Program-made: the position numbers and the translations under genes | Origin: Crossiella equi | GTDB taxonomy: Bacteria > Actinomycetota > Actinomycetes > Mycobacteriales > Pseudonocardiaceae | Assembly (NCBI RefSeq): GCF_017876755.1 | Contig: NZ_JAGIOO010000001.1 | Span: forward strand, 7,239,786-7,303,785 | Reading direction: 5' to 3' | DNA: 64,000 nucleotides | Part shown: positions 40,060-55,347 of the stretch, in pieces | Position numbering within the stretch: position 1 is the first letter of the stretch | Layout of the letters: each line of letters opens with the position of its first letter | Notes under the pieces: generated by a model | Databases searched by the model: none | Seen by the model: only the letters and a program-made list of their open reading frames with translations | What the model was told of the DNA's origin: nothing

Positions 40060-40665
40060 ATGACCAGGTTCCTGACTCGGACCGCCGCGGTGCTGGCCGG
40101 TGCCGCTCTCGCCCTGACCGGTACCGGGATCGCACAGGCCGCGCCGGTGACCAAGACGCTCACCTACACCTGCGAGTTCCCGCTCATCGGGCCGGACCAG
40201 ATGCAGGTGACCATCTCGGTGAACCTGCCCGACTCCGCCGTGGTCGGCCAGCCCGCGCAGGCCACGAACTTCACCGTGTCCGTGCTGGTGCCCGAGCACA
40301 TCGTCGAGGCCTTCGACCTGTTCGAGGCCAAGTCGCTGGACGGCTCCGCCGTCGCGAACTTCTCCGTGAAGGACGCGGCCGGGGTGAGCAAGCAGGTCAA
40401 CATCCCCGGCATGGTCGTGCCCAGCACGCCCATCCCGGACACCGGTGACCTGACCGTGCCCGCCTCCGGCAACGTGCCGCCGACCACGATCGACAACGCG
40501 GGCAACGCCGAGGCCATCGTGGGCGACAACTTCGAGGCCACGCTGACCCCGCGCAAGGCGGACGGCTCGCCGACCGAGCTGGGCACCTTCACGCTGCCGT
40601 GCGGCGTGAACGCGGGCCAGGACCAGAAGCTCGGCAACATCCCGGTCGCGGCCGCCCGGAGGTAG
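40060..40665 (+). CDS. Secreted DUF6801-type protein, first gene of mce unit
   Basis: 201 residues. Signal peptide MTRFLTRTAAVLAGAALALTGTGIAQA. The mature part has LTYTCEFPLIGPDQM near the start, VTKT before it, and TPRKADGSPTELGTFTLPC near the end, with two Cys likely bridged. The same two signatures are in the protein at 49917, so both are DUF6801-type exported proteins with a beta-rich fold of unknown role. It occupies the place where yrbE permease genes stand in usual mce operons. The next gene starts 6 nt downstream, and the unit runs without a break to 49721. Confidence 0.85.
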   Translation: MTRFLTRTAAVLAGAALALTGTGIAQAAPVTKTLTYTCEFPLIGPDQMQVTISVNLPDSAVVGQPAQATNFTVSVLVPEHIVEAFDLFEAKSLDGSAVANFSVKDAAGVSKQVNIPGMVVPSTPIPDTGDLTVPASGNVPPTTIDNAGNAEAIVGDNFEATLTPRKADGSPTELGTFTLPCGVNAGQDQKLGNIPVAAARR

Positions 40666-40671
40666 CCGAGG

Positions 40672-41916
40672 ATGACCAGGACTGGACCGGTGGCCACTCG
40701 GCTCGGCGCGCTCACCTCGGCGGCCGTGCTGGTGCTGGCGCTGGGCGTGGCACTGGTCGGGGACGGCTCCGCCGCCGCCGCTCCGCCCAGCCGCGTCGCC
40801 TACACCTGCACCACGCCCGACCTGGCCGCCCAGGCGGTGGCCACCGAGGTGGCCGGGGCCTTCCCGGCCTCGGGCCAGGTCGGCACACCGGTCCAGTCCA
40901 GCCTCACCGTGACCGTGAAGCTGCCCGAGACCGCGATCCCCGCGCTGCGCGGTGCGAGGTCCGTGGTCGGGGTGGCCGCGCTCGGCCTCACCACCAGCGG
41001 TGCCGGTACCAGCGGCGCGGTCACCGCCGAGGACCTCACCGTGCCCGCCACCGAGGTCCCGGCCACCGGCGAGCTCACCGTGGTGGCCACCGGCAAGGCC
41101 CCCGCGCTCAAGCCGACCAGACCGGGCGACCTCACCATCGGGATCGACGGGCTCAAGATCGGTTTCGCGGTGCCGACCGACGACCCGGGCACCACCACCT
41201 CGGTGGAGCTCACCTGCGTCAAGGACACCGGCCAGGACAGTCCCCTGGCCGTCGTGCCCGTCACCGGCACCACCTCCGGCACCCGTCCCACCTCGGGGCC
41301 GCCCACCTCCGCCACGGGCACCCCGGTGCCGGGCACCAGCACCAGCACCGCCCCCGAGGACGGCGGGCTGGGCGCGCTGGCCCGGCGCATCCGCTACAAG
41401 GTCGAGGGCGTCACCCGGGTGAAGAAGCAGGAGTCGGAGATGAACCTCGGGCCCGGCGAGATGCTCACCGAGGTGATCATCGCGCTGCCCAAGGGCACCA
41501 TCAAGGGCGACCTGACGCTGCCGCCGTCCAACAGCTACTTCACCATGTTCCGCTTCACCCCGGCCAACTCGGTGATCGAGTTCGAGCCGACCGGCCAGGT
41601 CACCGGCGAGATCGAACGCGGCCAGGTGAAGGCGGTCAACAAGATGGTCATCCGCGTGCGCGGCGCCAAGGTCGCGGGTGTGCCCCTGGACGTGGGCCCG
41701 AACTGCCGCACCGAGGAGATGACCATCAACCTGGTCTCCGCGACCCCGCCACCGGCGTTCCTGCCGACCCGGCCGACGCCGATGAGCGCGACCTACACGA
41801 TCCCGCCCTTCCACGGCTGCGGCGTCACCGAGCCCCTGGACTCGCTGCTGACCGGGCTGATCTCCGGCCCGGACAACACCTTGAAGCTCAACCTCACCTT
41901 CCTCGGGTACGAGTGA
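40672..41916 (+). CDS. Secreted two-domain protein: DUF6801-like plus a second beta domain
   Basis: 414 residues. Signal peptide ending near GDGSAAAA. Domain 1 (about 40-195) is DUF6801-like, YTCTTPDLAAQ to LTCVKDTGQDSPLAVVPV. A Thr/Ser/Pro linker (199-235) follows. Domain 2 (237-414), IRYKVEGVTRVKKQ, GDLTLPPSN, YTIPPFHGCG and LISGPDNTLKLNLTFL, matches the whole mature protein encoded at 50567 (SYTIPEFTNC, IPGPDNTISLNLT). It therefore fuses what the downstream unit encodes as two genes. Its stop overlaps the mceA start by one base (TGATG). Function unknown; export and coupling to mce suggest a substrate-binding or structural role. Confidence 0.82.
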   Translation: MTRTGPVATRLGALTSAAVLVLALGVALVGDGSAAAAPPSRVAYTCTTPDLAAQAVATEVAGAFPASGQVGTPVQSSLTVTVKLPETAIPALRGARSVVGVAALGLTTSGAGTSGAVTAEDLTVPATEVPATGELTVVATGKAPALKPTRPGDLTIGIDGLKIGFAVPTDDPGTTTSVELTCVKDTGQDSPLAVVPVTGTTSGTRPTSGPPTSATGTPVPGTSTSTAPEDGGLGALARRIRYKVEGVTRVKKQESEMNLGPGEMLTEVIIALPKGTIKGDLTLPPSNSYFTMFRFTPANSVIEFEPTGQVTGEIERGQVKAVNKMVIRVRGAKVAGVPLDVGPNCRTEEMTINLVSATPPPAFLPTRPTPMSATYTIPPFHGCGVTEPLDSLLTGLISGPDNTLKLNLTFLGYE

Positions 41917-43157
41917 TGCCAGCCAACTCCCACGTCCTGCGCGGCCGCCTGCTCGGCCTGCTGTTCCTGGTGATCATCACGCTGCTGCTCGGCCTGACCG
42001 TGGTGGTCTACCGGGGCGACCTGAGCACCGCGGCACCCGTGCTGCTGCGCACCGACCACATCGGCAACCAGCTGATGACCTCCTCGGATGTGAAGGTGCG
42101 CGGCATGGTCGTCGGCGAGGTCCGCCGCATCACCAGCCGCGGCGACGGCGCCGAGCTGGAACTGGCCCTGGACCGCGACAAGCTCGGCCAGATCCCGCGC
42201 AACGTCACCGCCCGCCTGCTGCCCAAGACCCTCTTCGGTGAACGCTACGTCGCCCTGGTCCTGCCCGACGGCGCCAGCACCGACAGCCTGGGCGCCGGGG
42301 ACGTGATCGGCCAGGACCGCTCGGCCAGCGCGATCGAGGTGGAACGCCTGCTGGGCAACCTGATGCCGCTGCTGGAGGCGGTGCAGCCGGCCAAGCTGTC
42401 CACCACGCTCAGCGCGATGGCCACCGCGCTCAAGGACCGCGGTGCCGCGCTGGGCGCGAACCTGGTGCGGTTGGAGCACTACCTCAGCGAGATCAACCCC
42501 GAGGTGCCCGCGCTCACCGAGGGCCTGGGCCAGCTGGTGAAGGTCGCCGACACCTACACCCAGGCCTTCCCGGACGCCCTGGACGCGCTGACCGAGCTGA
42601 CCACCACGACCAAGACCCTGCTGGACCAGCGCGAGGACCTCAACCGTCTCTACCGCGGCCTCGGTGTGGCCGCCTCCGACCTCGGCTCGTTCCTGCGCGC
42701 CAACAAGGACAACGTGATCCGTCTCAACGACGCCGCCCGCCCGACCCTGGAGACCATGGCCCGGTACTCGCCCTCCTTCCCGTGCCTGGCCGAGACGCTC
42801 ACCCGGTTCAAGCCGGTGATGAACGCCGCCTTCGGCGCGGGCACCGACCGGCCGGGCCTGAAGGTCAACCTGCACGCGGTGCGGCCGCGCGGACCGTACC
42901 TGCCGGGCCGCGACGACCCGGTCTACAACCAGCGCGGCGGGCCCCGGTGCTACCCGTTCGGCACCCCGCCGACCGGCAGCGGCGCCATCGCGCTGCCCGA
43001 GGCCGGTGACCTCGGCCTGGCCAACTCCGTGCAGGAGAGCCAGTTCCTGGCCCAGCTGCTCGCACCCGCGCTGGGCAGCACACCGGAGCAGGTGCCGTCC
43101 TGGAGCGGGGTGCTGCTGGGCGCGATCTACCGGGGAACCGAGGTGAGCGTGTCATGA
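41916..43157 (+). CDS. mceA: MCE-family protein, MceA position
   Basis: 413 residues. One membrane helix (LLGLLFLVIITLLLGLTVVVY, about 11-31), then an MCE domain (DHIGNQLMTSSDVKVRGMVVGEVRRI, PKTLFGERYVALVLP), a long helical region (KTLLDQREDLNRLYRGLGVAASDLGSFL) and a Cys-containing C-terminal part, PRGPYLPGRDDPVYN. Mce proteins form a hexameric channel that shuttles lipids across the cell envelope; MceA is the first of six. Overlaps the preceding and following genes. No yrbE precedes it. Confidence 0.93.
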   Translation: MPANSHVLRGRLLGLLFLVIITLLLGLTVVVYRGDLSTAAPVLLRTDHIGNQLMTSSDVKVRGMVVGEVRRITSRGDGAELELALDRDKLGQIPRNVTARLLPKTLFGERYVALVLPDGASTDSLGAGDVIGQDRSASAIEVERLLGNLMPLLEAVQPAKLSTTLSAMATALKDRGAALGANLVRLEHYLSEINPEVPALTEGLGQLVKVADTYTQAFPDALDALTELTTTTKTLLDQREDLNRLYRGLGVAASDLGSFLRANKDNVIRLNDAARPTLETMARYSPSFPCLAETLTRFKPVMNAAFGAGTDRPGLKVNLHAVRPRGPYLPGRDDPVYNQRGGPRCYPFGTPPTGSGAIALPEAGDLGLANSVQESQFLAQLLAPALGSTPEQVPSWSGVLLGAIYRGTEVSVS

Positions 43158-44173
43158 GGGGCATCACCGGGCCGCTGCTGAAGTTCAGCGTCTTCGCCGT
43201 GCTCACCACGCTGGTCACCGCGCTGCTCGCGGTCACCATCTCCAACGCCACCAGCGTCGGCGCGGGCTTCTACACCGCGCGCTTCGGCGATGTCACCTCG
43301 CTCAACGAGGGCGATGACGTGCGCATGGCCGGGGTCCGGGTCGGCAAGGTCGAGGGACTGCGACTGGCCGGCCGGGGGGTGGTCGAGGTGAGCTTCTCCG
43401 TCGAGGGCAGGCGGCGGATCCTCGCCTCGGCCACCGCCGCCATCCGCTACCGCAACCTGGTCGGCCAGCGCTACCTCGCCCTGGACCAGGGCAGCGGCAC
43501 CGTGGAGCCGCTGCCGCCGGGCGGGGTCATCCCGATCGAGCGCACCCAGCCCGCACTCGACCTCACCATGCTGTTCAACGGGTTCAAGCCACTGTTCCAG
43601 GCGCTGAACCCCGAGGACGTGAACAAGCTGTCCTACGAGGTGGTCCGCGTGCTGCAGGGTGAGGGTGGCACGGTGGACAGCCTGCTGGCCCGCACCGCCT
43701 CGCTCACCTCCACGATCGCGGGCAAGGACAAGGTGATCGGCGAGCTGATCGGCAACCTCAACACCGTGCTGGACTCGGTCAACGCCCGCGGCGACCAGCT
43801 CGCCTCGCTGATCTCCACCATGCAGAAGCTGGTCACGGGTCTCGCCCAGGACCGCAAGCCCATCGGCGAGGCGATCGGCGCCATGGCCGATCTCAGCGGC
43901 GCCACCACCGATCTGCTCAAGAAGGCCCGCCCCGCGCTCCAGGCCGACATCGCCGGGCTGGGCAAGCTGTCGGCGAACCTGACCGAGCAGCCCGACGTGC
44001 TGGAGCAGTTCCTGGAGCGGCTGCCCACCAAGCTGGAGCGGATCGGCCGGATCGGCTCCTACGGCTCGTGGTTCAACTTCTTCCTGTGCTCGGCCTCGGC
44101 CCCCGGTGTGCCCCCGGCACAGGGCGGGCCCCCGGTCGGCATCCCCCTGACCCAGGACAGGTGCAAGGGATGA
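43154..44173 (+). CDS. mceB: MCE-family protein, MceB position
   Basis: 339 residues. N-terminal helix (LLKFSVFAVLTTLVTALLAVTIS), MCE domain with GFYTARFGDVTSLNEGDDVRMAGVRVGKVEGL and YRNLVGQRYLALDQG, a long helical part and a short C-terminal region (YGSWFNFFLCSASAPG), as is usual for MceB. ATGA overlap with mceA and overlap with mceC. Part of the hexameric lipid-transport channel. Confidence 0.93.
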   Translation: MRGITGPLLKFSVFAVLTTLVTALLAVTISNATSVGAGFYTARFGDVTSLNEGDDVRMAGVRVGKVEGLRLAGRGVVEVSFSVEGRRRILASATAAIRYRNLVGQRYLALDQGSGTVEPLPPGGVIPIERTQPALDLTMLFNGFKPLFQALNPEDVNKLSYEVVRVLQGEGGTVDSLLARTASLTSTIAGKDKVIGELIGNLNTVLDSVNARGDQLASLISTMQKLVTGLAQDRKPIGEAIGAMADLSGATTDLLKKARPALQADIAGLGKLSANLTEQPDVLEQFLERLPTKLERIGRIGSYGSWFNFFLCSASAPGVPPAQGGPPVGIPLTQDRCKG

Positions 44174-45156
44174 AACCCTTCCGCGAGCGCAACCCCGTCA
44201 CCGTCGGCCTGTCCGGGCTGGCCACGCTCGGCGTGCTGTTCCTGGCCGTGTTCTTCTTCGACGACCTGCCCCTGGTCGGCGGGGACACGCACACCGCCGA
44301 GTTCACCGAGGCCGCCGGGCTCAAACCCGACGACGAGGTCCGCGTGCACGGCCTCAAGGTCGGCTCGGTCAGCACGGTCGCGCTGGCCGGGGACCGGGTG
44401 GCGGTCACCTTCCGCGTCTCCGGTGTCGAGCTGGGCGACAAGACCGGCGCGTCCATCCGGATCAAGACCCTGCTCGGCCAGAAGTACCTCGCGCTGGACC
44501 CGCAGGGCAGCGGTTCGCTGGGCGAGACGCCGATCCCGCGCGAGCGCACCCAGACCCCCTTCGACGTCAGCGACGCCTTCCAGGGCCTCACCGACACCAT
44601 CGGCCAGATCGACACCGGGCAGCTGGCGCAGAGCTTCCAGGTGCTGTCCGAGACCTTCCGCGACTCCCCGGAGCACGTGCGCAAGGCCCTGGACGGCATG
44701 TCCGCGCTGTCCACCACGATCGCCTCGCGCGATGCGGAGCTGGCCAAGGTGCTGGCCAACAGCAAGCGCATCACCCAGACCCTGAGCGACCGCAACGACC
44801 AGATCGCCGCGCTGCTCCAGGACGGCAACAAGCTGCTGGCCGAGATCCGCCACCGGCGCGAGCAGATCAGCCTGCTGCTGCGCGGCACCCGCGACCTGGC
44901 CAAGGAGCTGACCGGCCTGGTGCGGGACAACCGGGCCCAGCTCGGGCCCGCGCTGGAGCAGCTGGACCGCCTCGCCGAGATCCTGCAGCGCAACCAGGAC
45001 AACCTCGGCAAGGCCCTGGCCCTGTCCGGGCCGTACTACCGGCTGCTGAACAACCCGCTGGGCAACGGGCGCTGGGTGGACAGCTACGTGTGCGGCCTGC
45101 TTCCGCCCACCACCGGTGAGGAAGGCTGCGTGCCGCCGAAGGGATACCCGCGATGA
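44170..45156 (+). CDS. mceC: MCE-family protein, MceC position
   Basis: 328 residues. Helix NPVTVGLSGLATLGVLFLAVF, MCE domain (AGLKPDDEVRVHGLKVGSVSTV, IKTLLGQKYLALDPQG), helical domain, and a C-terminal GPYYRLLNNPLGNGRWVDSY with VCGLLPP, features shared by MceC proteins. ATGA overlaps at both ends. Confidence 0.93.
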   Translation: MKPFRERNPVTVGLSGLATLGVLFLAVFFFDDLPLVGGDTHTAEFTEAAGLKPDDEVRVHGLKVGSVSTVALAGDRVAVTFRVSGVELGDKTGASIRIKTLLGQKYLALDPQGSGSLGETPIPRERTQTPFDVSDAFQGLTDTIGQIDTGQLAQSFQVLSETFRDSPEHVRKALDGMSALSTTIASRDAELAKVLANSKRITQTLSDRNDQIAALLQDGNKLLAEIRHRREQISLLLRGTRDLAKELTGLVRDNRAQLGPALEQLDRLAEILQRNQDNLGKALALSGPYYRLLNNPLGNGRWVDSYVCGLLPPTTGEEGCVPPKGYPR

Positions 45157-46238
45157 CGATCGTCCACAGTGGCCGCACGAAGGTTCGCCTCCTGGTCATC
45201 GCCGTGGTGGCCGTGCTCGTCGCCGGGCTCGGCGTGTGGCTGTGGCGCGGTGGCGGTGACAAGGTGCGGGCGACCGCCTGGTTCGGGGCCGCGGTCGGGG
45301 TGTACGCGGGCTCGGACGTGCGGGTGCTCGGCGTGCGGGTCGGCGTGATCGACGCGGTCGAGCCGCAGGGCCAGCGCGTCAAGGTCAGCTTCACCCTGGA
45401 CCCCGGTGTGAAGGTCCCCGCGCAGGCGAAGATGGTCTCCGTCGCGCCCAGCCTGGTCTCCGACCGCTACCTCCAGCTCTCGCCCACCTACTCCAGCGGC
45501 CCGCTGCTGGCCACCGGCGCCGAGATCCCGGTGGAGCGCACCGCCAGCCCGGTCGAGCTGGACCAGCTCTACGACAGCATGTCCAAGCTGGCCACCGCGC
45601 TGGGCCCGGACGGCGCCAACAAGAACGGCGCGCTCTCGGACCTGCTGGACACCGGTGCGGCCAACCTCGACGGCAACGGTGCCGCGCTCAACAAGCTCTT
45701 CCGCGACCTCGGCCAGGCCGCCAAGACCCTGGACGGCTCCCAGGAGGACCTGTTCGGCACGGTCGACAACCTGGCCAAGTTCACCGGCATGCTGGCCCGC
45801 AACGACAGCCAGGTGGTGGCCGCCGAGCAACAGCTGGCCGAGGTCACCCGGTTCCTGGCCGCCGACCGGGACGCGCTGAAGGCCGCGCTGCACGAGCTGC
45901 CCGGCGCGCTCGGCCTGGTCGGCGACTTCGTCCGGGAGAACCGTGGCCGGGTCAAGTCCACAGTGGACAAGCTAACCGGCATCACCAGGGTGCTGGCCGA
46001 CCAGCGCGCCGCCCTGGCCGAGGCCCTGGACACCGCGCCGCTGGCCATGAGCAACCTCCTGGGCGCCTACAACCCGGCCGCGCGCACCATCGACGGGCGC
46101 GTGAACCTCAACGAGATCGGTCCCAAGCCCAGCGCGCGGTTCGTCCCGGTGGCCGCCGGGACCGACCCGAGGACGCTGCCCGTGGTCCCGCTGCCGCCGG
46201 TCGGCGAGGTCCGCACGCTGCCGAAGGAGAAGCGATGA
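45153..46238 (+). CDS. mceD: MCE-family protein, MceD position
   Basis: 361 residues. Helix VRLLVIAVVAVLVAGLGVWLW, MCE domain ATAWFGAAVGVYAGSDVRVLGVRVGVI with VAPSLVSDRYLQLSP, long helical part, and a Pro-rich C-terminus (VVPLPPVGEVRTLP). ATGA overlap with mceC and with mceE. Confidence 0.93.
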   Translation: MTIVHSGRTKVRLLVIAVVAVLVAGLGVWLWRGGGDKVRATAWFGAAVGVYAGSDVRVLGVRVGVIDAVEPQGQRVKVSFTLDPGVKVPAQAKMVSVAPSLVSDRYLQLSPTYSSGPLLATGAEIPVERTASPVELDQLYDSMSKLATALGPDGANKNGALSDLLDTGAANLDGNGAALNKLFRDLGQAAKTLDGSQEDLFGTVDNLAKFTGMLARNDSQVVAAEQQLAEVTRFLAADRDALKAALHELPGALGLVGDFVRENRGRVKSTVDKLTGITRVLADQRAALAEALDTAPLAMSNLLGAYNPAARTIDGRVNLNEIGPKPSARFVPVAAGTDPRTLPVVPLPPVGEVRTLPKEKR

Positions 46239-47314
46239 GGAAGGCACTGGCCCTCGTGCTCGTCGCGGCCTGCGCCTCCGGTTGCGGGGTCGGCGGCTTC
46301 GACGGGCTGTACAACCTGCCGCTGCCCGGCGGCGCCGACCTCGGCGACCGGCCGTACCGGGTGACCGCGCAGTTCCGGGACGTGCTCGACCTGGTGCCGC
46401 AGGCCGCGGTCAAGGTCAACGACGTCGCGGTCGGCAAGGTCGAGCGCATCGAGCTGGCCGAGGACGGGCGGGTCGTGGACGTCACGGTCGCGGTCAACGG
46501 CGAGGTGAAGCTGCCCAACACCGCGCTGGCCCGGCTGCGCCAGTCCAGCCTGCTCGGCGAGAAGTACGTGGAGCTGGCCCGCCCGCCCGAGGGCGGCGCG
46601 GACACCGGGCGGCTGGGTGACGGCGCGGTGATCCCGGTGGCGCGCACCAACCGCAACCCGGAGGTCGAGGAGGTCTTCGGCGCGCTGTCCCTGCTGCTCA
46701 ACGGCGGCGGGGTGCAGCAGCTGCGGGAGATCAGCCGCGAGCTGGCCGCCGCCTTCGGCGGCAAGGAGACCCAGATCAAGTCTCTGCTGTCCACAATGGA
46801 CAAATTTGTCGGTCAGCTGGACGCGAACAAGGACAGCATCACCAAGGCCCTCGACGGGCTGAACAAGCTCAACGGTGTGCTCGCCGGGCGCACCGGGCAG
46901 ATCGACAAGGCGCTCACCGAGCTGGAACCCGGCCTGCGCAGCTTCAGCGAGCAGCGGGAGATGATGACCGCGATGCTCGACCAGCTGCACCGCATGGGCA
47001 AGGTCGCCGCCGAGACGGTCAAGGCCAGCAAGGACGACCTGGTCGCCGACCTCAAGGCACTGCAGCCGGTCCTGGACCGGCTCGCCGAGGCCGGGCAGAA
47101 CCTGCCACAGTCCCTGGAGCTGCTGTTCACCTACCCGTTCCCGGACGCCGCGCTCAACGCGATCAAGGGCGACTACCTCAACACCTACCTCACGCTGCAC
47201 GTCAAGGGCGCCGGACCGGAGAAGCCGCCGCCCCCGGCCGCGGGCAAGGGCAAGCCGGTGCTGCCGCTGCCGCCGGTGGACGGCGTGCCCGCGCTCGGGA
47301 CGGGGGGCCGCTGA
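46235..47314 (+). CDS. mceE: MCE-family lipoprotein, MceE position
   Basis: 359 residues. Lipoprotein signal MRKALALVLVAACASGC (lipobox ASGC) in place of the membrane helix, the normal mark of MceE. FDGLYNLPLPGGADLG, MCE domain VPQAAVKVNDVAVGKVERIEL and RQSSLLGEKYVELARP, then helices and a Pro-rich tail. Stop and mceF ATG overlap. Confidence 0.93.
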   Translation: MRKALALVLVAACASGCGVGGFDGLYNLPLPGGADLGDRPYRVTAQFRDVLDLVPQAAVKVNDVAVGKVERIELAEDGRVVDVTVAVNGEVKLPNTALARLRQSSLLGEKYVELARPPEGGADTGRLGDGAVIPVARTNRNPEVEEVFGALSLLLNGGGVQQLREISRELAAAFGGKETQIKSLLSTMDKFVGQLDANKDSITKALDGLNKLNGVLAGRTGQIDKALTELEPGLRSFSEQREMMTAMLDQLHRMGKVAAETVKASKDDLVADLKALQPVLDRLAEAGQNLPQSLELLFTYPFPDAALNAIKGDYLNTYLTLHVKGAGPEKPPPPAAGKGKPVLPLPPVDGVPALGTGGR

Positions 47315-48525
47315 TGCTCACCGCACGCGTCCGCTGGCAGATCGGAGTGTTCGTCCTGGTCGCGCTCGTCGGGGTGTCCTACGTGGGCGCGCGCTACGCC
47401 GGGCTGGACCGCTGGTTCGGGTTCACCGGGTACGTGGTGCGCGTGCAGCTCGCCGACTCCGGCGGCATCTTCACCAACGCCGAGGTCACCTACCGGGGAG
47501 TGCCGATCGGCCGGGTCGGGCCGCTGCGCCTGTCCGCGCGCGGCGTCGAGGTCGACCTGGTGCTCGACGACGACGGGCCGCGGGTGCCGGTGGACTCCGA
47601 GGCCGTGGTGGCCAACCGGTCCGCGGTCGGCGAGCAGTTCGTGGACCTGCGGCCCCGGCGCGAGGGTGGGCCGTACCTGGCGCAGGGCTCGGTCATCCCG
47701 CAGGCCAGCACGCGCATCCCCAAGCCGGTGGAGAGCGTGCTGGCGGCGGTGGACGGGCTCGTCGCCTCGGTGCCCACCCAGTCGCTGCGCACCGTGGTGG
47801 ACGAGCTCGGCACCGCGTTCACCGGTGCCGGGCGGGACCTCCAGCAGATCCTGGACTCGGCCGGGTCCTTCACCGAGGCCGCGATCAGCCACCTGCCGCA
47901 GACCAAGGCGCTGTTCGTGGACGGGCGCACCGTGCTGGACACCCAGGCCGAGCAGTCCCAGGCGTTCCAGGACCTCAGCCGCAACGCCAAGCTGCTCGCC
48001 CAGGCCTTCCGGGAGTCCGACGGTGACCTGCGCCGGGTGATCGCGGCCGTGCCGCCGGTCTCCGAGCAGGTCTCGGCCGTGCTGCGGGAGAGCGGGCCGA
48101 ACCTGGGCGTGGTCATCGCCAACCTGCTCACCACCTCGAACGTGTTCGTCACTCGCAACGCGGGCCTGGAGCAGCTGCTGTTCACCGCGCCCGCCGCGGT
48201 CGCCGCGGGCACCTCGATCGTGCGCTCGGACGGCGCGCACTTCGGCATGGCGGTGACCTTCTTCAACCCGCTGCCGTGCAGCCAGGGCTACCAGGGCACG
48301 GAGTACCGCAACGGCCTGGTCACCACACCGGGCAAGGCGCTCAACACCGCGGCCGCGTGCACCCTGCCGAAGGGCAGTGCCACCGGTGTGCGCGGTTCGC
48401 AGAACGCACCCAAGGGCGGCAAGGTCAGCGCGGCCACGTCGAACTGGCAGCCCGCCAAGCTGGACAGCCTCGACCCGGGCACCGTGTCACTGCGCGGACT
48501 GCTCGGCCTGCCGGGAGGTTCCTGA
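47314..48525 (+). CDS. mceF: MCE-family protein, MceF position
   Basis: 403 residues. Helix WQIGVFVLVALVGVSYVGARYAG, MCE domain LADSGGIFTNAEVTYRGVPIGRVGPL with NRSAVGEQFVDLRP, then helical region. The long C-terminal part contains two Cys (LPCSQGY and AACTLPKG). It completes the set A-F expected for one Mce hexamer. Followed by two mce-associated genes. Confidence 0.93.
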   Translation: MLTARVRWQIGVFVLVALVGVSYVGARYAGLDRWFGFTGYVVRVQLADSGGIFTNAEVTYRGVPIGRVGPLRLSARGVEVDLVLDDDGPRVPVDSEAVVANRSAVGEQFVDLRPRREGGPYLAQGSVIPQASTRIPKPVESVLAAVDGLVASVPTQSLRTVVDELGTAFTGAGRDLQQILDSAGSFTEAAISHLPQTKALFVDGRTVLDTQAEQSQAFQDLSRNAKLLAQAFRESDGDLRRVIAAVPPVSEQVSAVLRESGPNLGVVIANLLTTSNVFVTRNAGLEQLLFTAPAAVAAGTSIVRSDGAHFGMAVTFFNPLPCSQGYQGTEYRNGLVTTPGKALNTAAACTLPKGSATGVRGSQNAPKGGKVSAATSNWQPAKLDSLDPGTVSLRGLLGLPGGS

Positions 48526-49025
48526 TGTCGAAGTCCCCGCGCCTGCCGGTGCTCGCGGTGGTGGTCGCCGGTCTGCTGGCCGCCGGGTCGGGCTGGTGGT
48601 GGTACGCCTCCGCCGAGGACGACGGCCTGCGCTACGCCGAGCTGCGCGAACAGGTGCGCACCACGGCCGAGCGGCAGATCACCGAGTTCAACAGCCTCGA
48701 CCACCGGCGCGTGGACGAGGGCGTGCGGCGCTGGCTGGACAACTCCACCGGCGCGCTGCACGAGGAGCTGCGGCAGAGCGGCGCGGCCAACCGGAAGCAG
48801 CTGGAGGAGACCAAGGTCGTCTCCACCGGCAAGGTCACCGACGCCGCGGTCACCGAGCTGGACGACCGCGCGGGCAAGGCCAAGGTGATCGCCTCGGTGG
48901 AGATCGAGGTCGCGCCCGAGGGCGCCGCGGCCACGGTCAAGCGCAACCGGTTCCAGGCCGAGCTGACCCGCGCCGAGACCGGGTGGAAGCTCTCCGCCCT
49001 CGGTCCGGTGCCCGTCGCCTCCTGA
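48525..49025 (+). CDS. Mce-associated membrane protein 1
   Basis: 166 residues. A short cytoplasmic start, a helix (LAVVVAGLLAAGSGWWWYAS), then a compact NTF2-like domain: QITEFNSLDHRRVDEGVRRWLDNSTG, VSTGKVTDAAVTELDDRAGKAKVIA. Mce-associated (Mas) proteins follow mce genes and are thought to stabilise the transporter. ATG overlaps the mceF stop. Confidence 0.87.
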   Translation: MSKSPRLPVLAVVVAGLLAAGSGWWWYASAEDDGLRYAELREQVRTTAERQITEFNSLDHRRVDEGVRRWLDNSTGALHEELRQSGAANRKQLEETKVVSTGKVTDAAVTELDDRAGKAKVIASVEIEVAPEGAAATVKRNRFQAELTRAETGWKLSALGPVPVAS

Positions 49026-49052
49026 TTTTTGTTGCCAGGAAAGGAAAGGCCC

Positions 49053-49721
49053 ATGGCACCGACCCGTCGCGCCACCGCCCCGCAACGACGCAGGCCCCCG
49101 GTGGCCGGTACCCGGCTGGTGCGCCCGCGCCAGGAGGACTCCGAGGTCGAGGGGCTCCTGGTGCCGGAGGAAACGTCCGCTGAGGCCGAGCCGGGAGTCG
49201 CGGAACCGGAACGGCCTCAGCGGACGTCCGGGGGCCGGACGCTCTACGCCGTCGCGGCCGCGCTGCTGGCCCTGGCCGGGTTCTTCGCCGTGCAGGGACA
49301 CCTCACCCGGAGCAGCGAGGTCGCGGCCAACCAGGCCCTGGTCAACGGCCCGGCCACCGCCGAGGTCGCCGGGCAGGTCGGGGAGGCGCTGCGGCGCGTG
49401 TTCTCCTACAAGCACGACGACACCGCGGCCACCGAGCAGGCCGCCGCCGAGGTGCTCACCGACACCGCGCGCACCCAGTACGACGCGCTGTTCGCCCAGG
49501 TGCGCGAGCAGGCGCCGCGGCAGAAGCTGGTGCTGGCCACCAAACCGGTGGTCACCGGGGTGCGCTCGCTGGCCGCCGACCGCGCGGTGCTGCTGGTGTT
49601 CCTGGACCAGACCGCCACCCGCGGCGACACCAACGAGACCTCCGCCTCGGCCGCGCAGCTGGGCGTGACCGCCAAGAAGGTGGGGGAGAAATGGTTGATC
49701 GCTGAACTTCAACCGCGCTAA
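49053..49721 (+). CDS. Mce-associated membrane protein 2
   Basis: 222 residues from ATG 49053 (AAGGAAAGG before it). A long charged N-terminal tail is followed by one helix (LYAVAAALLALAGFFAVQG, about 68-86) and an NTF2-like domain (VSYKHDDTAATEQAAAEVL-type sequence, AADRAVLLVFLDQTATRG). Second Mas-type protein and last gene of the mce transcript; an inverted repeat follows. Confidence 0.85.
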   Translation: MAPTRRATAPQRRRPPVAGTRLVRPRQEDSEVEGLLVPEETSAEAEPGVAEPERPQRTSGGRTLYAVAAALLALAGFFAVQGHLTRSSEVAANQALVNGPATAEVAGQVGEALRRVFSYKHDDTAATEQAAAEVLTDTARTQYDALFAQVREQAPRQKLVLATKPVVTGVRSLAADRAVLLVFLDQTATRGDTNETSASAAQLGVTAKKVGEKWLIAELQPR

Positions 49722-49729
49722 CTGCATTC

Positions 49730-49763
49730 AGATGACAATTTCCGGCGGAGCTGTTTGTCATCT
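49730..49763 (+). terminator. Inverted repeat at the end of the mce unit
   Basis: AGATGACAA at 49730-49738 pairs with TTGTCATCT at 49755-49763 around 16 nt, starting 9 bp beyond the last mce-associated stop. It could terminate the long transcript or be a binding site, since TTGTCAT arms recur nearby. Confidence 0.55.
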
Positions 49764-49818
49764 GAGGACGTTTTTGTCATTGGTTCCCAATAGGGGAAGC
49801 GATTCTGTTGTGACGTTA

Positions 49819-49834
49819 CCTACTTCCGAGTAGG
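49819..49834. promoter_or_regulatory. CCTAC-N6-GTAGG palindrome 2
   Basis: CCTAC TTCCGA GTAGG, preceded by TTA, 83 bp upstream of the second DUF6801 gene. Identical arms and spacing as at 39895-39910; a TTTTGTCATT motif at 49771-49780 also matches 39801-39810. Confidence 0.6.
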
Positions 49835-49916
49835 CTCCGATTCGTCGCACTGAGCGCGGCATCCGCGGATCAGCCGTTCCCTTCCCCGTGTTCCGATGTC
49901 AAAGGAGACGTCAGGC

Positions 49917-50528
49917 ATGCGAACCGCATTCGCCGCCCGGATGGCCGCCGTCCTCGGCGCCACCGCCCTGCTCTGCCCGGCCGCCGCCGTCGCCGGGGCG
50001 CACACCGCCACCGGACCGATCACCAAGAGCCTCAACTACACCTGCGAGTTCCCCCTGATCGGGCCGAACAAGCTCGTCACCAAGATCGACGTCACCATGC
50101 CGGAGTCGGTGAAGGTCGGCCAGCTGATGCGCGCCACCGACCTCGCCGCGACGATCACCGTGCCCGAGGAGGTGGCCCAGTCGCTGCTGCTCTTCGAGGC
50201 CGAGACCATCGAGGGCACCTCCGAGGCGCTGCTGGCCATCGACGCCAACGGCACCCCGATCGACGTGACCCTGCCCAACCTGGTGATCCCGAAGACCCCG
50301 GTGCCCAAGACCGGCGACCTGGTCGCGGTGGCCCGCGGCCCGGTGCCCGGCATCGGCGTGCGCAGCCCGGGCGCGATCGGTGTGGCGGTCGGCGACCACA
50401 CCTCGAAGCTGACGCCGCGCAAGGCCGACGGCAGCCCCACCGAGCTCGGCACGTTCGACCTGGTCTGCACCCAGGACGCCGGACAGGACCCGTCCCTGGC
50501 CCGGATTCCGGTGCACGCCGCCACGTGA
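49917..50528 (+). CDS. Secreted DUF6801-type protein, second unit
   Basis: 203 residues from ATG 49917, chosen for the AAAGGAG ribosome site. Signal peptide MRTAFAARMAAVLGATALLCPAAAVAGA. Contains LNYTCEFPLIGPNKL and TPRKADGSPTELGTFDLVCTQDAGQDPSLARIPV, matching both the protein at 40060 and domain 1 of the protein at 40672. Operon with the next gene, 38 bp downstream. Exported, beta-rich, function unknown. Confidence 0.85.
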   Translation: MRTAFAARMAAVLGATALLCPAAAVAGAHTATGPITKSLNYTCEFPLIGPNKLVTKIDVTMPESVKVGQLMRATDLAATITVPEEVAQSLLLFEAETIEGTSEALLAIDANGTPIDVTLPNLVIPKTPVPKTGDLVAVARGPVPGIGVRSPGAIGVAVGDHTSKLTPRKADGSPTELGTFDLVCTQDAGQDPSLARIPVHAAT

Positions 50529-50566
50529 TCCACCCCGTTGTTCGTTCTACCTGCGGAAGGAATGAC

Positions 50567-51184
50567 ATGAGGAGATCGGGAAAGTCGGCGTTACGCGTTC
50601 TCGCGCTGACCGCCGTCGCACTGCTGGCCCACATCGGGGTCGCGGGCAGTGCGATGTCCGAACCCGCGTCCCCGGCGGTGAAAATCAACTACAGCGTCGA
50701 GGGCCAGAGCGTGGTGAAGAAGACCGGCTCCACCCTGCCGCTGGGCCCGGGCGCACTGGCGGTGGACCTGGCGGCGGCAACCGGCGACCTCACCGGTGAC
50801 CTGACCCTGCCCCCGGCCCACTCGGAGTTCAAGGTCTTCGGCCTCATCCCGGTGACGGCCACGATCGACTTCCTGCCCCAGGGCCAGACCACCGGCAAGA
50901 TCGTGCGCGGCGTGGTCACCTCCAGCTCCCAGGTCGTCCTCCGCCTCCGCAACGTCAAGGCGGGCGGCCTGGAGTACCCGGTGGGCGACAAGTGCCAGAG
51001 CAAGGCCCCCATGCAGATCGACCTCACCTCCGAAGCGGGCTTCAACCCGCTGAAGGGCGGCAAGCTCTCGGGCAGCTACACCATCCCGGAGTTCACCAAC
51101 TGCCACCTGGCCGAGCTGCTGATCAACTTCATGATCCCGGGCCCGGACAACACGATCAGCCTGAACCTCACCCGCGTGGTGTGA
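50567..51184 (+). CDS. Secreted protein homologous to domain 2 of the 40672 product
   Basis: 205 residues from ATG 50567 behind GGAAGGA. Signal peptide about 30 residues (ALRVLALTAVALLAHIGVAGSAMS). Mature domain INYSVEGQSVVKK, GDLTGDLTLPPAHSEF, YPVGDKCQSK, SGSYTIPEFTNCH, and MIPGPDNTISLNLTRV. Two Cys at the same places as in the fusion protein at 40672. Terminates before a very strong hairpin. No known function. Confidence 0.83.
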   Translation: MRRSGKSALRVLALTAVALLAHIGVAGSAMSEPASPAVKINYSVEGQSVVKKTGSTLPLGPGALAVDLAAATGDLTGDLTLPPAHSEFKVFGLIPVTATIDFLPQGQTTGKIVRGVVTSSSQVVLRLRNVKAGGLEYPVGDKCQSKAPMQIDLTSEAGFNPLKGGKLSGSYTIPEFTNCHLAELLINFMIPGPDNTISLNLTRVV

Positions 51185-51248: not shown

Positions 51249-54200
51249 TCAGCGCAGCACGTACGCCCGGTGCAGCACCTGCCGGGCCGTCAGGCCGGTG
51301 CCGTCCTCGGCAGCCAGGCGCAGCGACACCACGTCACCGGCCTTGCCCATGGCCGGGAGCACGCCCCGGTCGTCGCGCAGCGGGACCTCGCGCCAGGTCC
51401 GGCCGTCCACGCTGACCTCCAGCTTCGTGGTCACCGCGCCCTCGCCGCCCGTGGTGCGCACCGCCACCGGGAGCGGGCGGCCCGCCGGGGCGGTGCCGGT
51501 CTCGTCCAGGTCGACCCTCGGGGTGACCGAGAGGACCCGGACGCGCTCCGGGCGCGGGCCCGTCGGCGGGGTGGCGCGGAAGGTCCACGCCGCCTCGTAG
51601 CGTTCCTGGCCCCGGCTGCCGGTGGCGGTCAGCTCGAAGACCGAGGTGCCCGACGGGATCTTCCAGTAGCCGGAGGCCGGGTGCTGGCTGCGGCCGATCT
51701 CCACGCCGTCCCGGCGCAGCACCACCTCGCCCTGCGTGCTGTCCCAGTCGTTGGCGCTGTACTGCTCCGGGGCGCGCGCGTCACCGGGCTGCGGGCTGTT
51801 CAGCGCGTACTGCCAGGACAGCTCGTCGCCGAAGCGCGCCGCGCCGTACACCGGGCCCGGGCGCGCGGCGTGCAGGCCCGCGTTGTAGGCGCGCGGGGTG
51901 CTGCCGTGGTGCGGGTACCAGGCCGCGGCCGCGTCCACGTGCCGGATGAAACCGCCCGGCGGACGGCCGGTGCCGTCGCCCATGTTGTCCAGCTTCGCCC
52001 ACCAGCCCGGTGTCAGGTACTCGGTGCGCGTGGTGCCCAGCGGCAGCGCGGGCGGGCTGTCGCGGAAGGGGAAGCTCTCCTGCCACGGCGCCGCCGCACG
52101 TCCGGCCAGCGCCGGGCGCCACGTCGGGCGCACCGCCGTGTAAGGACCGCCCTTGCGGTAGGTGACCTCGACCTTGCTCAGCTCACCGCGCCGCCCCCGC
52201 ACGAGCGCGCCGTCGGTCATGCGGCCCGAGGACGCCCGCGCCAGGTCGTAGCTGACCGGGCTGTTCGGTGTGCCGGTGACGCGCACCGTGACCGGACCCT
52301 TGCCCAGCAGCTCGTACAGGGCGGTCAGGCGCTGTTCGGCCGCGGTGAACAGCGGCACCTCGGTCGGCCGCAGGTGCACCGGGGCGACCACCACCACCGC
52401 CTTGGCTCCCGCGTCCGCCACCCGCTTCACCTGCTCGTCGGCTCGGCCGGGCGGCGGGGCCAGTACCGCCAGCTTGCCCCTCAGGTCCTTGCCCGTCAAA
52501 TCCTCCGGGCGGCCCTCCTTGACATCCACCACGGGCAGCTCGTGCGTTCCGGTCAGCAGCGGGCTGAACTCGTTGCGGCGCAACAGCAGCGGCTGCCGCG
52601 TCGGCGCCACGACCTCCGCCCGCACCTCCGGCCGCACCGCGGTCACGTGCGTGAGGTGGCGGAAGTGCGCGGCCTGTCCGCCGAGGTCGGCCAGGTACAC
52701 CGGCGCGTCGGTGTCCACCGAGTACGGCGCCCGGTGCGGGGTCGTGCCCGGTTCGCGGTCGGATCCCTTGCCGTGCAACACGGTCAGCTCCACGCCGGAG
52801 ACCGCCAGCTCGGGGTCGTCCAGCTCGGTGCGCACCGGCTTCGCCTTGCGGCCGTCAGCGTCGATCGTGGTGTTCCCGGTCAGCGACACCTTGGGCGCCA
52901 CCTGCTGCACCAGTGCCACCGGGTCGCCCCGGTCCTCGCCGCGCGGCCCGGACTCGGTGTGCGTGGCGGTCACCAGGTACTCGCCCTTGGCCGCGCGCAC
53001 GGTCACCACCCCGTCGGCACCGACCTCCGGCACCTCGTGGGTCTCGTTGTCCAGCCCGGACACCGTCACCTCGGCGTTGGCGGGCTTGCCGTCCCGGCCG
53101 GTCACCCGGACGGTGAGGTCGTAGCGCTCCTCCTCGACGTAGGCGCCGACCGCGGTGCGCACCTGCGTGTCCCCGGCGGTCGCGGTCAGCCAGCCGCCGT
53201 ACAGGCCCAGGCGGCGGTTCGGGTCCACCGTCACCGACACCTTCTCCTTGGCCTTCGCGGGCACGGTGACCTTCGGCGCGGACAGGCTGAACTGCCCCGG
53301 GTCCGGCGCGCCGCCTGACTTGTCCACAACGGACAGTGCCAGGTCCAGGGTCACCGGCTGGTCGGAGTCGTTGTGGTACACCACGTCCTTGGTGACCTTC
53401 GGCTGCTGGCCGTGCGGCCACTGGAAGTAGCCCAGCGACAGCGCGCCCTGCTCGGCGGTGACCGCCTGCTTCGTCGCGCGCGCCAGGTCCACCACACCGG
53501 CGCCCTGGCCGTACACCGATACACCCGCCAGGGGCTTCGCGGTGGACATCAGCGCCGCCTTCAGCCGGGCCGCGCCCCAGTCCGGGTGCTGCCCGGCGAG
53601 CACCGCCGCCGCGCCGGTCACGTGCGGGGCCGCCATCGAGGTGCCCGAGTTCGCCACGTACCGCTCGCCCCCGGCGGAGTCGGCCTTGGCCGCGTGGATG
53701 TCGCTGCCCGGCGCGGTGATCTCCGGCTTGAGCGCGTAGTCCCCGGCACGCGGGCCGCGTGAGGAGAACTCGCTGAGCTTGCCGTCCTTGGTGGAGCTGG
53801 CCACCGCGAGCGCGCCGTCGACGGTGGCGGGGTGCCCGACCGACTCGTCTGCACCGTCGTTGCCCGCCGCGATCACGAACAGCGTGCCGTACTCGGCGGA
53901 GAGCCGTTCCACGGCCTCGCTCACCGGGTCGGGCTGCTGCTGGCGCAGGCCGAAGCTCATGTTCACGGCCTTGGCCCGGTGCCGCACCGCGGCCCAGGTC
54001 ATGCCCGCCAGCACCGCGTCCTCGGTGGGGCCGAAGTCGCCGACCTTGCCGAAGAACAGCCTGGCGTCCTTGGCCACGCCGACCTGCTTGCCGCCGCCCG
54101 CCGCGCCGCTGCCCGCGACGGTGGAGGCGACGTGCGTGCCGTGGCCGATGGTGTCCTTGATGCCGTGCTCGGAGTTCGAGAAGTCCTTGGCCTCCACCAG

Positions 54201-54908
54201 GACGTCCTTGAAGTCCGGGTGGTCGACGTCGATGCCGCTGTCCAGCACCGCGACCGGCACGTCCTTGGCGGTGTGCCCGGCCTGCCAGGCCGCGGGCGCG
54301 CCGATCAGCGGCACGCTCTCGTGCAGCGTGTACTCCAGCGTGGCGTTGAGCCAGACCTTGCCCGCGGACCGCTGGTGGCCCTGGCTCTTGATCGCCTCCC
54401 AGGCGCGGGCGGCGGAGGCCTTCGGCGCGGACACCGCCGACAGGCCCAGCTCGGGCAGTTCGCGGGTGCGCGTGGTCGAGGCCGGTGCCTGCGGGGCGGT
54501 GCGCGAGCGAGCGGCGGGATCGCCCGCGACCAGCAGCGGCACATCGGCGCGCCTGCCGTCCTCGTACCCGGCCTCCAGCAGCAGGCTGATGTTGAACAGC
54601 CGCCCGTCCACCCGGCCCGAGCGCACGAGCGGGTCGGCGTCCAGCGGCCGCACGAACCACTGGCCGCGCTCCAGCCAGCGGCGGTACCGCGTGCCCGCGC
54701 GCTCCGGGGCGGGCTCGAACCCGGTCGGCACGCCGTCGGCGGCCACCGCGACGCGGTCCCCGGTGACCAGGGTGAGGGTGCGCTGCGGCCCGGGCGCCGG
54801 GGCCGCGGCCGGGGCCGGTTCCGGTGCCGCGGCCGCGGGCAGGCCCGTCGCGAGCAGCGCCGCCGAGAGCACGGCGACGGGTATGGATCTCTTCGCGGGA
54901 TGTCGCAT
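51249..54908 (-). CDS. Large secreted S8 family subtilisin-like peptidase
   Basis: 1219 residues. Signal peptide MRHPAKRSIPVAVLSAALLATGLPAAAA, propeptide region, then a peptidase S8 domain with Asp223 (AVLDSGIDVDHPD), His256 (IGHGTHVAST), Asn350 (VIAAGNDG) and Ser424 (NSGTSMAAPHVTG). All catalytic residues are present. Downstream are beta-sandwich-like domains, a protease-associated-like segment (DLRGKLAVLAPPPGRADEQV, near 830) and a C-terminal beta region. The architecture fits extracellular actinobacterial proteases that break down proteins outside the cell. ATG start; monocistronic. Confidence 0.92.
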   Translation of the reverse strand: MRHPAKRSIPVAVLSAALLATGLPAAAAPEPAPAAAPAPGPQRTLTLVTGDRVAVAADGVPTGFEPAPERAGTRYRRWLERGQWFVRPLDADPLVRSGRVDGRLFNISLLLEAGYEDGRRADVPLLVAGDPAARSRTAPQAPASTTRTRELPELGLSAVSAPKASAARAWEAIKSQGHQRSAGKVWLNATLEYTLHESVPLIGAPAAWQAGHTAKDVPVAVLDSGIDVDHPDFKDVLVEAKDFSNSEHGIKDTIGHGTHVASTVAGSGAAGGGKQVGVAKDARLFFGKVGDFGPTEDAVLAGMTWAAVRHRAKAVNMSFGLRQQQPDPVSEAVERLSAEYGTLFVIAAGNDGADESVGHPATVDGALAVASSTKDGKLSEFSSRGPRAGDYALKPEITAPGSDIHAAKADSAGGERYVANSGTSMAAPHVTGAAAVLAGQHPDWGAARLKAALMSTAKPLAGVSVYGQGAGVVDLARATKQAVTAEQGALSLGYFQWPHGQQPKVTKDVVYHNDSDQPVTLDLALSVVDKSGGAPDPGQFSLSAPKVTVPAKAKEKVSVTVDPNRRLGLYGGWLTATAGDTQVRTAVGAYVEEERYDLTVRVTGRDGKPANAEVTVSGLDNETHEVPEVGADGVVTVRAAKGEYLVTATHTESGPRGEDRGDPVALVQQVAPKVSLTGNTTIDADGRKAKPVRTELDDPELAVSGVELTVLHGKGSDREPGTTPHRAPYSVDTDAPVYLADLGGQAAHFRHLTHVTAVRPEVRAEVVAPTRQPLLLRRNEFSPLLTGTHELPVVDVKEGRPEDLTGKDLRGKLAVLAPPPGRADEQVKRVADAGAKAVVVVAPVHLRPTEVPLFTAAEQRLTALYELLGKGPVTVRVTGTPNSPVSYDLARASSGRMTDGALVRGRRGELSKVEVTYRKGGPYTAVRPTWRPALAGRAAAPWQESFPFRDSPPALPLGTTRTEYLTPGWWAKLDNMGDGTGRPPGGFIRHVDAAAAWYPHHGSTPRAYNAGLHAARPGPVYGAARFGDELSWQYALNSPQPGDARAPEQYSANDWDSTQGEVVLRRDGVEIGRSQHPASGYWKIPSGTSVFELTATGSRGQERYEAAWTFRATPPTGPRPERVRVLSVTPRVDLDETGTAPAGRPLPVAVRTTGGEGAVTTKLEVSVDGRTWREVPLRDDRGVLPAMGKAGDVVSLRLAAEDGTGLTARQVLHRAYVLR

Positions 54909-55347
54909 GGCGGCGATGTTTCAGATCCATCGCAGTGTGCCGGTACTCGTTGACAAAGAACTGAATTCGGAGCAGTCGAAAGTCTGGTCGCACCCTGAAA
55001 TTTCCCTGATTTCTGACGCGGAGGGTGATCAGGGTTTCCCTTGGTCAAGCGGGAGATTGTCATCCCACCGGGTAGCACGGTGGACAGGTTGCCAGGGTGG
55101 TACGGACAACCTCGTTTGTACAGCGGCCGAACGCGGGTTTCCTGCCGGTGGTGCCTGACCCGATCGGCCCATCTGCGCTGAACGAGTGACCTATCACGAA
55201 TTCGTGTGAACACACTCGACAAGGCGCTGACCTGCCGAGGACGTGACTTAGGCTCCCTGCTTGTCGGCCCAGTCCACCCCATTCTCGGAACCACAGGCAG
55301 CACTGCTGTGGTTTGTTTTGTGCTGCCTCGTGCGGCGAGGAGGAATT
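54909..55347. other. Divergent promoter region, subtilase and terpene synthase
   Basis: About 440 bp, AT-richer than its surroundings. It contains the perfect 12-bp palindrome CACGAATTCGTG at 55195-55206. No gene seen. Confidence 0.45.
55195..55206. promoter_or_regulatory. Palindrome upstream of terpene synthase
   Basis: CACGAATTCGTG, a perfect 12-bp palindrome about 140 bp before the terpene synthase start; a possible regulator site. Confidence 0.4.

Follow-up and report, generated by a model that had tools for sequence, protein, structure and literature searches.

Organization of the locus

The window analysed here, a stretch of 64,000 nucleotides from the genome of Crossiella equi, contains a complete set of the six Mce transporter genes mceA-F, and no gene for the YrbE permease was found in these 64 kb either with Pfam MlaE or with our own profiles. 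The locus consists of twelve co-directional genes on the + strand (40060-51184), in which proteins carrying the domain DUF6801 or a further C-terminal domain (CTD) stand before and behind the mce genes and two Mce-associated (mas) genes:

40060..40665, +, DUF6801 protein of 201 amino acids (aa) with a signal-peptide-like N-terminus; Pfam DUF6801 140 bits
40672..41916, +, exported two-domain protein, DUF6801 plus CTD, 414 aa; Pfam DUF6801 68 bits, own CTD profile 213 bits, fold model with a mean predicted local distance difference test score (pLDDT) of 84
41916..43157, +, mceA; Mce4_CUP1, MlaD, TIGR00996 over its cut-off
43154..44173, +, mceB; Mce4_CUP1, MlaD, TIGR00996 over cut-off
44170..45156, +, mceC, start taken at the ATGA overlap with mceB; Mce4_CUP1, MlaD, TIGR00996 over cut-off
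45153..46238, +, mceD; Mce4_CUP1, MlaD, TIGR00996 over cut-off
46235..47314, +, mceE, with a lipobox-like ASGC near the N-terminus; Mce4_CUP1, MlaD, TIGR00996 over cut-off
47314..48525, +, mceF; Mce4_CUP1, MlaD, TIGR00996 over cut-off
48525..49025, +, Mce-associated (mas1-like) protein, 166 aa; its profile matches the gene after mceF in the yrbE-linked set L075, 89 bits
49053..49721, +, Mce-associated (mas2-like) protein, 222 aa; its profile matches the next gene in L075, 104 bits
49896..50528, +, third DUF6801 protein, 210 aa; Pfam DUF6801 143 bits
50567..51184, +, stand-alone CTD protein; own profile 224 bits, fold model with a mean pLDDT of 84

All six Mce proteins were over the Pfam cut-offs for MlaD and Mce4_CUP1, as they were over that of TIGR00996, and the set spans 41916-48525 behind two exported DUF6801-type proteins. 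An earlier reading made from the letters alone (the sequence-only reading) had described a complete mceA-F without yrbE, headed by such proteins, and this description was borne out, with zero MlaE matches and with 140 and 68 bits at a Pfam cut-off of 26 bits. Including the third, three proteins of the locus belong to DUF6801 (PF20611). The translational coupling to mceA, also proposed there for both leading proteins, is real for the second. Its stop and the mceA start form the junction TGATG, and overlaps of 1-4 bases (ATGA or TGATG) chain the genes from this protein through the first Mce-associated gene, but a gap of 6 bases separates the first DUF6801 gene from the second, with a GGAGG spanning the stop of the first. 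The array continues beyond 49721 with a further DUF6801 protein and a further CTD protein up to 51184, and an alternative start of the latter is possible at a GTG (50525) that overlaps the preceding stop. The mas-type genes downstream of mceF are profile-related to those behind the linked set; no Pfam model matched the mas1-like or the mas2-like protein. The left neighbour of the locus is a helicase gene on the opposite strand. To the right lie a gene for a subtilase-family protein of 1219 residues (51249-54908, -) and, beyond it, a terpene synthase gene (55261-56397, +).

Permease genes in Crossiella equi and in relatives with a lone permease

A Pfam search of the whole genome, a single contig of 9.44 Mb, gave four MlaE (YrbE) matches, one pair at 5.437 Mb and one at 2.089 Mb, together with 18 MlaD domains (3 x 6), six of them in the window locus. 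The genome has three mceA-F sets against two yrbE pairs, each of which adjoins its own set elsewhere. A gene for an ATP-binding cassette (ABC) ATPase, MceG by position and by our own profile, of which a single type was assigned, lies directly before the 5.437 Mb pair, with the ribosomal L10 gene just upstream; a YrbE pair and an MceG-type ATPase are thus available in the genome, outside the window. The Mce set of the window compares at 53-62% with the mceG-linked set and at 48-56% with the third set, and because it is nearer to the former, the mceG-linked YrbE is the likelier partner.

The most telling cases were found among the relatives. Genomes G085 and G270 have six MlaD domains each, all in a yrbE-less locus, and one yrbE pair elsewhere. 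The permease locus of G270 (L226) reads mceG-yrbEA-yrbEB-mas1-mas2, with 361 bp from yrbEB to mas1 and the linked mce genes gone. At the same place the interval is 1.7 kb in G085 (L224), where one mceF remnant is left, 3.2 kb in Actinosynnema mirum (G024, L082), where mceB, D and F have left remnants, and 7.0 kb, with six mce genes, in the intact comparison, G113. Judged by these remnants, A. mirum, with its one yrbE pair and one complete MCE set, is an intermediate stage in the loss of the linked mce genes. The YrbE proteins of the three genomes are 98.5-99.5% identical, with ratios of nonsynonymous to synonymous substitution (dN/dS) of 0.03-0.38 on few changes, mceG is 96-98% identical with a dN/dS of 0.16-0.19, and the yrbE-less mce genes gave 0.14-0.36; these dN/dS values come from simple counting on GC-rich genes and are rough. 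Our own profiles found no mas gene beside the 15 yrbE-less sets of the Actinosynnema/Saccharothrix group (g21), so that each of the two kinds of locus, the yrbE-less set and mceG-yrbE-mas, has what the other lacks. Among all genomes with a yrbE-less set, 20 have a single yrbE pair, and mceG lies beside it in 10 of these, the ones whose locus was fetched.

Because the same genome keeps a permease without linked mce genes and a needle without linked yrbE, the two would appear to be one transporter coded in two places. The sequence-only reading had named a permease supplied in trans as one of two explanations, and this is now strongly supported by the three sets against two pairs in C. equi and above all by the lone mceG-yrbE pair in G085 and G270. 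The orphan yrbE pairs that it had proposed to look for are not seen in the C. equi genome, where both pairs stand beside their own sets, but the lone pair of G085 and G270 is of this kind. In the trio G024, G085 and G270, YrbEA has seven fixed and unique positions, versus 0-1 in five control trios, and YrbEB has two, versus 0-3; with branch length uncontrolled, this is suggestive only of a change in YrbE after a switch of partner.

Distribution and origin of the yrbE-less loci

Counts of mceA and yrbE were compared over a family sample of 297 genomes and the loci were then read. At least 25 yrbE-less loci were found, 24 of them with all six mce genes: five in Crossiella, three in Allokutzneria, one in G035 (genus g32), 15 in g21 and one in Goodfellowiella (G032). 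As up to 6 mceA and 9 yrbE candidates were scored per genome, more may exist. The survey of mce loci for the same arrangement, which had been suggested from the sequence, has in this way extended it to at least five genera. MlaE/yrbE is absent at 25 of 25 loci of this group, and DUF6801 or CTD genes adjoin every one of the sets. All five Crossiella genomes have four yrbE and three mceA genes and the same locus architecture; in g21, the genus that includes A. mirum and among whose rows the named Saccharothrix loci fall in the trees, 15 of the 23 listed genomes have the locus. Among the best 80 named loci encoding a relative of the window MceA, three are without yrbE (one Crossiella, two Allokutzneria) and 77 with it. 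Of the 297 genomes, 270 have mceA (E up to 1e-60), and a yrbE match was found in 270 of these 270, in G145 only as a fragment; G112 has a yrbE match without mceA at this cut-off.

The yrbE-less locus of Goodfellowiella (G032; L100:6-4463, L099:6-5767, L244, L245) runs from CTD directly to mceB, and the only mceA of this genome is at the linked locus. The contigs of its yrbE-less and linked loci end in exact shared stretches, of 242 bp at mceD and 618 bp at mceF; this points either to gene conversion between the sets or to a break in the assembly. Lone mceA-like genes were also seen in G044, a genome of the same order (L097:10490-11515, L098:11154-12164), with no other mce gene and no yrbE in the fetched stretch; they resemble the mycobacterial orphaned Mce1A.

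The 25 yrbE-less rows all grouped together, with a Shimodaira-Hasegawa-like approximate likelihood ratio test (SH-aLRT) support of 88, in a tree built from concatenated Mce proteins; 120 rows qualified after 4 duplicates had been removed, and 74 of them were used. The grouping was recovered at 91/89 with a slower mixture model on 43 of the 74 rows, which included 12 of the 25 yrbE-less rows and left out Goodfellowiella, and 90% of the bootstrap trees had one origin. The nearest neighbours of the group were a larger set of DUF6801/CTD loci with yrbE in the 74-row tree, and mceG-linked sets plus three DUF6801/CTD loci with yrbE in the 43-row tree. A single origin of the yrbE-less state is thus fairly well supported on these sequences, and by gene order and parsimony the event would most simply be a loss of yrbE. 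Of the 77 named loci with yrbE, 10 have DUF6801 and/or CTD genes close to a complete yrbEA-yrbEB-mceA-F, and the same holds for a number of loci of the relatives (L083-L092, L094 and L109 among others). The CTD gene is directly before yrbEA in several of the yrbE-bearing loci and divergent or downstream in others. Because relatives have such genes directly before an intact yrbE pair, the present order would most simply have arisen by a deletion of yrbE from between the exported genes and mceA. A yrbE pair retained by relatives and only recently displaced here was the outcome that the sequence-only reading had set against itself; relatives do carry yrbE at this position, but its absence is shared by at least five genera and does not go back to a recent event.

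The DUF6801 and CTD proteins

The sequence-only reading had seen the exported proteins as standing in the place of the permease. This was not upheld, as CTD/DUF6801 genes directly precede intact yrbE in several relatives, and a replacement of the permease by the exported proteins is not supported. The second leading protein combines DUF6801 with the CTD, and no Pfam model matches the latter. The two-domain protein and the stand-alone CTD protein are predicted to be beta-rich, with confidently modelled domains. The best hit of the two-domain model in the PDB was 3lso (E 7e-4, root-mean-square deviation 29.7), which is no convincing solved relative; the CTD model matched DynF best (E 8e-3, template modelling score 0.34), then OmpW, HtaA and transferrin-binding protein among others, and the CTD profile matched nothing among PDB sequences up to E 10. 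The models allow the fold to be called beta-barrel-like and no more.

Among 60 relatives DUF6801 was present in 24, of which 24 had yrbE; of the 36 others 17 had it (chance probability 4e-6, with relatedness not taken into account). The domain also occurs outside mce loci, as in a fourth copy at 0.567 Mb in the C. equi genome. In G036, of the same order, 19 DUF6801 matches, several of them clustered, were counted in a 4.2 Mb genome with one yrbE pair. In open-licence literature, of which the hits were viewed in part, no title or abstract dealt with yrbE-less mce sets, no paper named DUF6801, and no description of a function for this domain was found.

A scan of neighbouring proteins covered seven, taken from five of the yrbE-less loci. 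In two g21 loci an acyl-CoA synthetase-type gene (L233:7660-9246, L239:10353-11909) and a PucR-type regulator gene (L233:6231-7526, L239:12250-13497) lie between CTD and mceA; a PucR-type regulator has this place in G035 also (L093:12257-13756), and in Allokutzneria one lies downstream (L217:13301-14491). The protein scanned from L230 had no match. These neighbours point weakly to fatty acids. That the DUF6801 and CTD proteins act where the needle meets the envelope and pass lipid on to it is a guess, which we hold to be somewhat less likely than not. They may be dedicated cargo binders, as the sequence-only reading had also proposed.

A C-terminal tail of MceA was considered as a mark of partnership with DUF6801/CTD proteins. 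Matches of the MceA profile reached residue 400 or beyond in 9 of 26 rows without yrbE (including the lone mceA loci L097 and L098), in 26 of 27 with yrbE and DUF6801/CTD, and in 11 of 75 with yrbE only. The candidate was rejected, as the yrbE-only tails inspected carry a similar motif at their end, behind a longer insert.

Constraint on the yrbE-less Mce proteins

Mean identity to mceG-linked sets was 0.39-0.57 for the transmembrane part and 0.58-0.70 for the ring of the yrbE-less proteins, versus 0.38-0.53 and 0.55-0.69 in DUF6801/CTD loci with yrbE. As these identities are similar, the regions that should contact YrbE do not, on the whole, show relaxation. In the Mce1 system a pore loop of Mce1F contacts YrbE1B (PMC9882608). 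The dN/dS of yrbE-less mce genes was 0.17-0.45 in Crossiella and 0.14-0.42 in other pairs.

Evaluation of the explanations

We consider it probable, at roughly 0.83, that YrbE is supplied in trans to the yrbE-less needle. The locus would encode an alternative MCE needle (an MceA-F heterohexamer with Mce-associated proteins) without its own permease, and this needle would use an MceG-YrbEA-YrbEB ABC core from elsewhere, most likely that of the mceG-linked 5.437 Mb pair, which would serve its own linked needle too. The forerunner was most simply a locus of the order DUF6801/CTD - yrbEA - yrbEB - mceA-F. From it yrbE would have been lost once, before the split of Crossiella, Allokutzneria, Goodfellowiella and the Actinosynnema/Saccharothrix group. 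Coupling of the exported protein to mceA would have followed in Crossiella. We infer docking of the needle on YrbE, inward transport and a lipid substrate.

Several observations weigh against supply in trans. The ring of MceC is less like that of linked sets in the yrbE-less than in the yrbE-bearing loci (0.60 vs 0.66), as is that of MceF (0.61 vs 0.64). The yrbE-less genes of Crossiella evolve somewhat faster, with a dN/dS of 0.29-0.45 (window versus L077), whereas a comparable pair gave 0.24-0.27 for its linked set. The yrbE of the Actinosynnema type changed more at the amino-acid level, with a dN/dS of 0.15-0.21 against G134 and 0.03-0.10 among genomes with linked sets, which may reflect either re-fitting or some relaxation. 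Crossiella has a second, complete linked set, and the dependence on a distant permease is argued from its relatives. Finally, loss of yrbE1A is reported to remove the Mce1 proteins in Mycobacterium tuberculosis, that is, the permease is a dedicated one there (PMC1810536).

The lack of yrbE at the locus could instead be explained by a permease-free system, with the needle as a passive tube or bridge and the exported proteins supplying the role of YrbE, in keeping with the DUF6801 or CTD genes beside all 25 yrbE-less sets. The same proteins, however, also accompany yrbE-bearing sets, G085 and G270 have kept mceG and yrbE where no other MCE set could use them, and not one of the 270 genomes with mceA is without a yrbE match, so that such a system is very improbable. 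An unrelated permease encoded elsewhere might also energise the needle. In Gram-negatives, MCE proteins of the LetB type have a PqiA-type membrane partner, and in the PqiAB and LetAB tunnels, which are multi-MCE homohexamers, this partner is not MlaE/YrbE. Unlike these systems, the C. equi genome gave zero matches to the PqiA family (PF04403) in a search that was positive for the control, E. coli, and in which other permease families were not searched. Precedent for such a pairing is found in pqiAB, where a PqiB-type MCE protein works with a PqiA-type membrane protein, according to PMC1810536; we nevertheless regard an unrelated permease as still less probable than a permease-free needle.

It could be argued, too, that the yrbE-less subunits mostly swap into the linked needle and form none of their own. 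The Goodfellowiella locus, with its sole mceA at the linked locus and its exact shared stretches, would fit such mixing, as would the single-gene Mce1A paralogue that seems to enter Mce1 in Mycobacterium smegmatis (PMC9882608). However, 24 of the 25 loci retain all six genes, a second set to mix with is lacking in G085 and G270, and the Goodfellowiella contigs stop at the shared stretches, where the assembly may mislead; mixed needles as the general case are about as improbable as the permease-free system. The faster evolution in Crossiella might be expected of a decaying remnant, an operon on its way out after losing its permease. Against this, the mce genes are all intact in 24 of 25 loci with a dN/dS well under 1 (0.14-0.45), they persist in at least five genera, and three genomes show decay of the linked set instead, which makes decay the least credible of these explanations.

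Relation to known Mce systems and meaning

The locus resembles the actinobacterial and mycobacterial Mce transporters (two yrbE genes and mceA-F, with MceG/Mkl; PMC1810536, PMC9882608) in its six different MCE subunits, in the A-F order and in the mas-type genes behind; MceG and YrbE are present in the genome, and one ATPase serving several sets is already known. Unlike the mycobacterial operons, where two yrbE genes precede mceA, it has no yrbE, and the permease too would be shared between loci. Another parallel is oMce1A of M. smegmatis (MSMEG_6540, PMC9882608), an MCE protein whose gene lies apart from yrbE and which seems to join a complex with YrbE. That is one gene, whereas the window holds an entire needle of six subunits, which has accessory proteins of its own and is conserved in several genera.

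The locus is a real, conserved variant of the Mce transporter with its permease encoded apart. We lean, with moderate confidence, towards a modular view of Mce, in which one conserved MceG-YrbEAB engine can drive interchangeable MceA-F needles encoded elsewhere and the Actinosynnema group discarded the original needle, its engine being permanently re-fitted with another. If this is true, the choice of substrate would reside in the needle and its exported DUF6801/CTD partners and not in the permease. The locus also links two families of exported domains, one of which Pfam does not describe, to Mce loci. The natural separation of needle and permease reveals which parts must still fit each other, and the separated parts offer a direct route, in soil bacteria, to ask whether needle or permease sets the cargo.

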